IMG/VR virus record: IMGVR_UViG_3300025630_000044
Location: 1 to 27,925 of that record
Source of the DNA: a virus
Strand: one strand, 5' to 3'
Length of the DNA: 27,925 bases
Positions 20,995-26,206 of this stretch are shown here, piece by piece. Each line of letters starts with the position of its first letter. Positions within the stretch are counted from its first letter, which is position 1. Both the position numbers and the translations under genes were made by a program. A model generated the notes under the pieces. That model worked only from the letters and a program-made list of their open reading frames with translations. It had not been told where the DNA came from and searched no databases.

Positions 20995-21873
20995 TCAGCT
21001 TTCGGTGCAAGGCGCTTCAAGAACGCGCTTTTCTTCCATACGAGTGCCGCCAATGGCCATCGAAAGGAATACTTGGGTCGCATAGTTCTTGTCAGCACGC
21101 TCACTGATTTTGGTCACAACGTCTTGACCGAGGCCAAGCAGCAGACCGTCCATTTGGAAGGCAAAGCAGCGGCGGTCGCCGTTGCCATCCACCGGCACCA
21201 ACTTGGAACCGTCGATGCGGTTGCCGTTGACGCTGATGAATTTGAAGCCCATGAACGTATCGACTTCGCCACGAGCCAGTGCCTTGACCGTATTGAAATC
21301 CGAACTTTTGATTTCAGTGGTGTTCAGCAGAGATTTGATCTGGCTGGCGGTGCAAACGATGCAACGGCCTTCGTCCGGCACATCGTCGCCGTCAAAGGTT
21401 TCTTTGATCGAAAGCAGAGTCGTCAGGTTCATGTTAGACGCTTGCGCCGAAAGGGCGGTTTGCGCTGCCGTTGCCGTGGAGCCGGAAACGCCCGTGTAGG
21501 CGGTGCCGAGCGCCGCGTCGATCAGGACTTCGTCCATCGCACGACCCATCGCTTTCGCGGCGGCTTGTGCGTACTGCGAAGTCGGATCAATCAGCATCCG
21601 AACCTTGTCTTCATTGTCGATTAGATCAGCCCAATCGAAATCTTCCAGGGAAACCCGACGACGAGCGTGCGGGGTGTCGATCTGCGGAGTATCCGCATGA
21701 CGCGACGGACGACGACGAGCGGCGGTAGCGCCGATCTGCTCAAAAAACGCATTTTTGCCGACAACAGCTTCTTCGCGAACTTCACCCCGCAACTTGGAAC
21801 CATCCTGCTGGACAAGGTGCTGAACATTCGCTGAATACTGCTCGACAAAGGCGGTAGTAACTTGAACGGACAT
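20995..21873 (-). CDS. major capsid protein
   Basis: 292 residues from the ATG at 21873, which follows AAGGAGAATGGATC; the frame is open to 21939 but without a site. Resembles phage capsid proteins of the HK97-fold group seen in T7-like and BPP-1-like podoviruses: VTTAFVEQYSANVQHLVQQD at the N-terminus, RRRVSLEDFDWADLIDNEDK, AAKAMGRAMDEVLIDAALGT, CIVCTASQIKSLLNTTEIKS, FMGFKFISVNG and a C-terminal MAIGGTRMEEKRV. The gene is isolated from the scaffold by a terminator and has its own extended -10 promoter and a leader of about 120 bases, consistent with a need for very high expression. Confidence 0.87.
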   Translation of the reverse strand: MSVQVTTAFVEQYSANVQHLVQQDGSKLRGEVREEAVVGKNAFFEQIGATAARRRPSRHADTPQIDTPHARRRVSLEDFDWADLIDNEDKVRMLIDPTSQYAQAAAKAMGRAMDEVLIDAALGTAYTGVSGSTATAAQTALSAQASNMNLTTLLSIKETFDGDDVPDEGRCIVCTASQIKSLLNTTEIKSSDFNTVKALARGEVDTFMGFKFISVNGNRIDGSKLVPVDGNGDRRCFAFQMDGLLLGLGQDVVTKISERADKNYATQVFLSMAIGGTRMEEKRVLEAPCTES

Positions 21874-21913
21874 GATCCATTCTCCTTTGTTGAATGTTAC
21901 AGTTTGGTTTTGC

Positions 21914-22000
21914 GGGGTGTCGCCAATATGACGGCCCAAAAGCGCCTAAACTCTTGAGCGGGTCCAATGCGGAGTGTCCACAAAGATTGAAAGGCGTGTC
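21914..22000 (-). repeat. three GACACNCC repeats in the capsid leader
   Basis: On the minus strand the 8-mer GACAC-N-CC occurs three times between the promoter and the capsid ribosome site: 22000-21993 (GACACGCC), 21978-21971 (GACACTCC) and 21921-21914 (GACACCCC). All have the same orientation, with spacings of 22 and 57 bases. No ORF covers this leader. They could be protein- or RNA-binding sites in the 5' untranslated region; chance is possible because the unit is short. Confidence 0.35.
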
Positions 22001-22001
22001 T

Positions 22002-22010
22002 AATATAACA
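22002..22010 (-). promoter_or_regulatory. extended -10 promoter for the capsid gene
   Basis: Minus-strand TG-T-TATATT (22010-22002) matches an extended -10 element (TGnTATAAT, five of six in the hexamer). No good -35 hexamer lies 16-18 bases upstream, where the sequence is TTCCAT-like, as expected of an extended -10 promoter. It lies between the terminator at 22033-22070 and the capsid gene, giving a leader of about 120 bases. Confidence 0.5.
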
Positions 22011-22011
22011 C

Positions 22012-22022
22012 ATTGTGACAAT
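22012..22022. promoter_or_regulatory. candidate operator palindrome ATTGTGACAAT
   Basis: ATTGT-G-ACAAT is a perfect inverted repeat around one base. It lies immediately upstream of the extended -10 element, in the -15 to -30 zone, where a bound protein would activate or block RNA polymerase. The same TGTNACA core recurs at 25730-25740. Confidence 0.4.
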
Positions 22023-22032
22023 AATGGAACAT

Positions 22033-22070
22033 AAAAAAACCCCCCGCCGACGATGCTTGTCGGCAGGGGG
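22033..22070 (-). terminator. strong rho-independent terminator upstream of the capsid gene
   Basis: Read on the minus strand: a 12-bp stem (CCCCCTGCCGAC with GTCGGCGGGGGG, one T-G wobble; 22070-22059 and 22051-22040), a 7-base loop, then seven Ts (22039-22033). It lies 26 bases past the stop of the AT-hook gene and ends the terminase-to-scaffold transcript before the capsid promoter. Confidence 0.92.
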
Positions 22071-22095
22071 CGCGACAGGGAGGAAAAGGGAAAAC

Positions 22096-22251
22096 TCACC
22101 CGTCGCTTTTTGGTGGCCTACCTCTACGTTTTGGCTTTTCGTCGCCTCCCTTGATCCAATCATAATATGTTTGAGCGTTCCTGACGGTTAGGTCTGGCTG
22201 ACCGGCTTGCCCCAACTCAAGGCATTTTAGTTTCAATTCCTCTTCAGTCAT
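22096..22251 (-). CDS. 51-aa protein with C-terminal AT-hook-like motif
   Basis: 51 residues: MTEEELKLKCLELGQAGQPD, then LTVRNAQTYYDWIKGGDEKP and KRRGRPPKSDG. Starts in an ATGA overlap with the scaffold stop. The first part resembles the short phage proteins of pattern ELxLKxLELA...AxxYYDWI often found next to capsid genes. The KRRGRPPK tail is a canonical AT-hook core (RGRP flanked by basic residues), which binds the minor groove of A/T-rich DNA. It may be a DNA-binding or packaging accessory, or a regulator acting at the A/T-rich promoter just downstream; the latter is speculation. It fills a gap that would otherwise look non-coding. Confidence 0.72.
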   Translation of the reverse strand: MTEEELKLKCLELGQAGQPDLTVRNAQTYYDWIKGGDEKPKRRGRPPKSDG

Positions 22252-25750: not shown

Positions 25751-26206
25751 TTAGCACACTAGCGGTCGTCTGTATATTGTAAATTTGTCCGTAAAGCCAA
25801 GGCGCTCGTACAATTTGCCAATTCTTTCCGGCTTAATGCCAGCCGACACACCAAGCGCCGGGGTTTTAACGCCGCGTTCCTCGCACCATTGAACGTAATT
25901 TTTAATCATACGAACGCCGACCATGCCGTTGCGATGCTCCGGCGTTAGAAATATCGCCAGATCGCCGCTCGTTAGGTCGTGGCCAAAGAAATGCGGCGCA
26001 ACGTAACCAGCGCCGAATCCTACAATCTCGCCATCAACCTCTGCTACCACGCCCCAATAAACATTAGGGTTGTCAACAATCAGAACGCCCAATTCCATGG
26101 CCTTAATCGGATCAAAATCAAGGTTTGCATAATAACTTTCGTGGTGCATTTCAGCGCCGAGAGCGACGGCGGCTGGCAAATCGTCAAGGGTGACGGGGCG
26201 GATCAT
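25751..26206 (-). CDS. GNAT-family N-acetyltransferase
   Basis: 151 residues, a complete GNAT fold. N-terminal MIRPVTLDDLPAAVALGAEM, strand WGVVAEVDGEIVGFGAGYVA, acetyl-CoA pyrophosphate-binding segment LTPEHRNGMVGVRMIKNYVQ (R92-N-G-M-V-G97) and motif B region KLYERLGFT. Transfers acetyl from acetyl-CoA to an unidentified amine. Similar acetyltransferases are embedded in the packaging region of several phages. Targets might be phage structural proteins, host proteins or small molecules; nothing here tells. ATGA junction with the 40-aa gene upstream shows it is part of the late transcript rather than a separate moron. Confidence 0.88.
   Translation of the reverse strand: MIRPVTLDDLPAAVALGAEMHHESYYANLDFDPIKAMELGVLIVDNPNVYWGVVAEVDGEIVGFGAGYVAPHFFGHDLTSGDLAIFLTPEHRNGMVGVRMIKNYVQWCEERGVKTPALGVSAGIKPERIGKLYERLGFTDKFTIYRRPLVC

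Follow-up and report, generated by a model that had tools for sequence, protein, structure and literature searches.

Gene order and predicted promoter upstream of the capsid gene

The window analysed here is a single stretch of 27,925 nucleotides from the DNA of a water-borne phage, and the locus of interest is the interval 21874-22251, read on the minus strand. The major capsid gene (20995..21873, minus strand; phrog_3437, E 4.3e-76) begins with an ATG at 21873-21871. It is preceded by a leader of 122 nt, counted from the predicted transcript start (21995-21874, minus strand), in line with the untranslated leader of about 120 bases proposed in the earlier note, and a Shine-Dalgarno sequence, AGGAGA (21881..21886, minus strand), stands at the leader's end, 7 nt before the capsid ATG. 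The non-coding part of the interval covers 222 bases (21874-22095), and 22096-22251 is a conserved small gene of 51 codons on the minus strand, lying between the capsid-assembly/protease gene and a terminator. Its 51-aa product carries YYxW and RGRPPK motifs and has no match in PHROGs or Pfam. Forms of 51-58 aa with an invariant YYxW (also at L212:5622-5798) are conserved from the window to HTVC010P, and the gene sits between the capsid-assembly/protease gene and the capsid gene in the window and relatives alike; in the window form, the C-terminal RGRPPK end resembles an AT-hook. The small gene is seemingly missing from some relatives (e.g. L231, L240, L277), in which the leader RNA described below is kept. 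In these three and in L233, where the gene also seems absent, an inverted repeat with matched changes, AAYCCCTT...AAGGGRTT, lies upstream of the leader and brackets an AT-rich, promoter-like stretch. The window's late gene cluster also includes an acetyltransferase gene (25751-26206; phrog_1249, E 3.5e-31), flanked by terminase and portal.

For comparison we took 80 capsid-encoding relatives from viral contigs, collected extra close relatives by leader patterns, and added two further sets, one of 80 relatives of the HTVC010P capsid and one of 23 loci in assembled bacterial genomes; conservation of promoter and terminator was counted in close relatives, over 24 upstream sequences that differ from one another. 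Akkermansia assemblies (L322-L325) also encode a distantly related capsid (31-32% identity), and their G+C-rich leaders look rich in hairpins.

Between the small gene and the promoter we found a rho-independent terminator on the minus strand (22032..22071), in which a G+C-rich stem of 13 bp (22071-22039) is followed by a T-run, giving a U-run in the RNA, with a folding energy of -27.9 kcal/mol. The strong terminator that had been placed at 22033-22070 is real, and a terminator-like hairpin with a T-run, differing in sequence, lies upstream in 22/24 distinct relatives. The extended -10 element TGTTATATT of the capsid promoter (22002..22010, minus strand), likewise claimed before, bears out in comparison: in 21 of the 24 distinct relatives, a hexamer carrying A2 and T6 stops exactly 6 nt short of an invariant GCCTT, a fixed spacing from the predicted start. 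This GCCTT (21991..21995, minus strand) marks the predicted transcript start, inferred from the -10 spacing. At the 16-18 nt distance of a sigma70-type promoter the window has a weak -35 hexamer, GTTCCA (22030-22025, minus strand), with 3/6 matches, and relatives mostly have 4/6; the extended -10 may offset the weak -35 in the window. In HTVC010P-type leaders, CC[CT]TTG and TATAA[AG]-like hexamers are found exactly 18 nt apart in all 45 matched leaders, with or without small gene overlap, and this pair is a possible late promoter signal. In close relatives, the comparison supports a capsid operon set apart by a terminator and its own predicted sigma70-like promoter, as the earlier note had it. 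The separation is not general, because Pelagibacter-type leaders have the promoter and, by eye, no terminator.

The 11-bp palindrome ATTGTCACAAT that had been taken for an operator is present (22012..22022), and we judge it a chance feature. It is broken in near-identical relatives, reading ATTGCCACAGT in L095 and CTTGCCACAGT in L187, and the window holds 18 palindromes of this 5+1+5 type where about 27 are expected, which is no enrichment. On these results we reject it as an operator.

A scan of the 20 main ORFs of the window showed no T7-type RNA polymerase gene, in line with the earlier note, nor does the genome of Skadi, from the same phage group, have one (PMC10504331). It is therefore plausible that host polymerase drives the predicted capsid promoter, and the authors of the study on the HTVC010P-type phage group also infer host polymerase use (PMC10504331). 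As for the phage factor suggested to act together with host polymerase, its part may be played by the leader RNA, in place of a protein bound to the palindrome.

A structured RNA at the predicted start of the capsid transcript

The earlier note had described the leader as untranslated, and comparison supports in it a conserved structured RNA of ~85 nt, running from 21995 to ~21912. The covariance model R1 matches the whole element at 21908..21996 (minus strand) with 67.7 bits and finds no second match in the window at E<=1. It has three helical elements, all on the minus strand, and two of them, the hairpins P2 and P4, hold asymmetric loops that are conserved. P2 (21958..21981) is a hairpin, GUGG-ACAC-UCC..GGA-C-CCGC, in which a 4-nt bulge lies opposite one C, a module that recurs in HTVC010P-type and other relatives. 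P3 (21937..21956; CAAGAG/CUUUUG) pairs in 91.7% of cells, failing in L014 and L145 and partly in L205. P4 (21913..21938) is a hairpin, UGGG-C-CGUC..GGCG-ACAC-CCCG, with a bulge on the 3' side, and the bases at its outer end compete with P3 or are stacked on it. Across the close-group alignment the conserved pairing blocks are GUGG-ACAA-UUCC..GGAA-C-CCGC for P2, CAAGC/GCUUG for P3 and GGG-C-CGUC..GACG-AUAA-CCC for P4. The GCCUU at the predicted +1 is complementary to AGGC (21947-21944) in the P3 loop, making a possible fourth helix, P1, an H-type pseudoknot that would link the 5' end to the P3 loop. P1 has no two-sided covariation, being invariant save for wobble changes and one lost end pair.

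Support for the fold comes from compensatory changes, which exceed controls. From an unfitted MAFFT alignment of the close group RNAalifold recovered P4 in full and P2 in its outer part, and in the model-fitted alignment, which is biased towards the structure, 97.4% of cells pair, compared with at most 47.0% for slid structures. Two-sided changes occur at 7 of 19 pairs in close relatives, and the covariation score was reached by 0/500 shuffles. At one P2 pair U-G is the commonest type, which points to an element acting as RNA rather than as DNA. Folding energy alone was tried as a measure of significance and rejected, since the single-sequence thermodynamic fold of the leader was no better than shuffles (z -0.30). 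Such non-significance can occur with short or pseudoknotted RNAs.

Leaders of more distant phages carry related structure. From 46 HTVC010P-type leaders, again in an unfitted MAFFT alignment, RNAalifold found P2, a middle hairpin and the inner part of P4, with two-sided changes at 13/19 pairs and with a P2 geometry equal to that of the window (a 4-nt A-rich bulge opposite one C). Counted over 23 pairs in these leaders, 13 show two-sided changes, and once the outer part of P4 is included the share of paired cells is 99.0%, compared with a maximum of 47.5% for slid structures. A loop base and a downstream base covary in all 46 parsed leaders (A/C in 29, C/G in 17), a count inflated by the relatedness of the sequences, and this coupling suggests a tertiary contact. 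A P2 descriptor matched 26/28 close, 9/13 intermediate and 55/64 HTVC010P-type leaders, compared with 4.5-10% of shuffles, and among the 85 leaders matched by a stricter version the third outer pair is seen as all six standard pair types. The P2 module is present in HTVC010P itself and also before capsid-like genes at phage-like loci in alphaproteobacterial assemblies (L305, L306, L308, L316). In HTVC010P, P2 overlaps the end of a small gene, so coding constraint contributes there; some relatives lacking that gene keep P2. A P4-like hairpin with a 3' bulge was found in 12 of 13 intermediate leaders, compared with 6.9% of shuffles, and P4 of the HTVC010P type was matched only by a descriptor with a wider internal loop, so that the resemblance to the window is looser for P4 than for P2. 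Pelagibacter-type leaders (L032-L081) have a supported structure of their own that includes a P4-like hairpin but not the standard P2; they are linked to the window RNA by position, promoter anchoring and the P4-like hairpin only, and homology is unproven. A single model for all leaders was tried and abandoned, R1 recovering only the close group and R2 only the HTVC010P type together with L069, L067 and L066. Judged by matched mutations, a folded leader appears to be kept over a large phage group that includes phages of Pelagibacter, an abundant bacterium of the ocean.

The position of the RNA is nearly fixed relative to the promoter. The first helix strand follows the -10 element by 6 nt in 21/24 close relatives, by 5 nt in nearly all Pelagibacter-type leaders and by 9-10 nt in 43/45 of the HTVC010P type, whereas the distance from P4 to the ATG varies (34-41, 27-77 and 18-68, respectively). 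Because the former is near-fixed while the latter varies, we read the RNA as tied more closely to where transcription is predicted to start than to the ribosome binding site. No genome or contig searched holds more than one copy, and each copy lies ahead of the capsid gene; R1 found no second copies elsewhere in the genomes. Weak R2 matches in G020 and G027 (E 0.004-0.2) were rejected as extra copies: they are AT-rich and lack most of P2 or many pairs, and the best of them lies inside a coding frame, so they were treated as chance.

Candidate roles of the leader RNA

Comparison supports four things: that the leader is a folded RNA, that it stands where the transcript is predicted to begin, that it occurs singly and that it always precedes the capsid gene. 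The RNA probably controls late-gene expression. As to how, the reading we place first, tentatively and at less than even chances, is that a dedicated late promoter gives rise to a transcript opening with a cis-acting RNA that modifies host polymerase in the manner of HK022 putRNA. The late promoter would be followed by a transcript opening with the ~85-nt structured RNA, then by a linker with the Shine-Dalgarno sequence and the capsid gene. The nascent RNA would fold on leaving host RNA polymerase, the bulged hairpins P2 and P4 together with the buried 5' end would form a binding surface acting in cis on the late transcript, and the modified polymerase would then read through the ~12-kb capsid-to-tail operon in phages that have no polymerase of their own. 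No strong intrinsic terminator was seen downstream of the capsid gene on the same strand, the terminator described above lying upstream, and this counts against put-like action because an antiterminator would have no strong terminator to overcome.

Nearly as likely, if likewise short of probable, is protection of the mRNA 5' end, in which the folded leader would keep the opening nucleotides of the transcript out of reach of 5'-end-dependent decay (RppH, RNase E or RNase J) and make the mRNA long-lived, as production of the most abundant virion protein requires. Stem-loops at the 5' end stabilise the ompA and T7 gene 10 mRNAs. In two leader types the first helix strand coincides with the predicted +1, and in the third it is within a few nt of it, an anchoring that fits 5'-end protection as well as put-like action; with the conserved terminator lying upstream, transcripts would start at the leader. 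The conserved bulge sequences, the coupled loop base and the complex fold, however, exceed the needs of a protective 5' hairpin. The two roles could coexist; between them we infer put-like action first, narrowly.

Translational autoregulation, in which the capsid protein, the capsid-assembly protein or the product of the small basic gene would bind the bulged hairpins and repress or activate capsid translation, strikes us as unlikely. The RNA always lies directly before the capsid gene and two similar bulged hairpins could serve as repeated binding sites, and P22 scaffold and T4 gene 32 offer precedents. Autoregulation fits less well because spacing to the start codon is loose, with a variable distance from P4 and whole hairpins inserted in some leaders while the -10 distance is nearly fixed, and because pairing of the Shine-Dalgarno sequence is unconserved. 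In predicted folds that sequence pairs with the coding region, not the leader, and those early capsid codons vary at silent sites, so sequestration by the leader was rejected, there being no conserved switch. The small gene, moreover, is missing from many genomes that have the RNA.

We consider it highly improbable that the leader is a ligand-binding riboswitch sensing a metabolite during infection. Conserved internal-loop residues and the possible pseudoknot do resemble aptamers, and a glutamine riboswitch is reported in methylophage Melnitz and Pelagibacter phage Mosig (PMC9004378), but between P4 and the ATG the leader has neither a terminator nor a conserved Shine-Dalgarno-sequestering expression platform, and no Rfam riboswitch matches it. 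Least credible of all is a reading along the lines of the earlier note, with a DNA-level operator and promoter and nothing beyond an ordinary untranslated leader, for while the terminator and -10 element are real, the palindrome is neither conserved nor enriched and compensatory pair changes, including G-U pairs, occur across the leader.

Returning to put-like action, its wider form, that HTVC010P-type phages share a hitherto undescribed family of regulators made of RNA only, working on host RNA polymerase where the late operon begins, is a more speculative step that we would call doubtful. If true, such a family would stand in for the antiterminator proteins or phage-encoded polymerases that serve elsewhere among phages. 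Phages of the HTVC010P type, which rank among the commonest viruses of the sea, switch on their late genes without an RNA polymerase of their own; a conserved RNA at the predicted capsid transcript start is a concrete, testable candidate for that switch, and Pelagibacter phage isolates carry such an RNA.

Comparison with known systems

The leader is a candidate RNA family absent from Rfam: no Rfam 15 family scored above its gathering threshold in 18 sources, and under permissive settings the window leader and those of two relatives gave chance-level matches only. No description of the RNA was found in the open-access articles searched. The RNA also accounts for short genes that gene callers place before the capsid gene; the short hypothetical genes annotated over the leader region at L216:424-516 (Lederberg_17) and L222:386-475 (UOF81360.1) are probably spurious.

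Like this locus, T7 has a promoter of its own for the capsid gene, phi10, and, with the gene 10 leader, a transcript whose 5' end is structured. T7 gene 10 relies on the phage's own polymerase and a simple 5' hairpin, whereas at the locus described here the promoter is sigma70-like, the conserved RNA is larger and a terminator precedes them. The manA and wcaG motifs are, like the leader, structured RNAs of marine metagenomes and phages, but they accompany metabolic genes and are found in cyanophages (PMC2864571). HTVC010P-type phages (Ubiqueviridae, e.g. Skadi) share the window's capsid family and late gene order, and the leader RNA is present in the HTVC010P-type isolates read; the published annotation of this group reports promoters near replication genes and no terminators or riboswitches (PMC10504331).

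A parallel in layout is offered by HK022. The putL RNA lies just downstream of its own promoter, is ~70 nt long with two bulged stem-loops and its 5' end in a helix, and binds host RNA polymerase without a dedicated trans-acting protein, the resulting antitermination persisting for at least 10 kb (PMC9378689). Set against that published description, the likeness is one of layout only: a folded RNA just downstream of a promoter for host polymerase, a predicted one in the window, with two bulged stem-loops, a 5' end in a helix, here a possible one, and a long operon to follow. HK022 has two put sites per genome, serving early operons, whereas the leader RNA occurs in one copy, precedes the late capsid operon and has a possible pseudoknot between P1 and P3.
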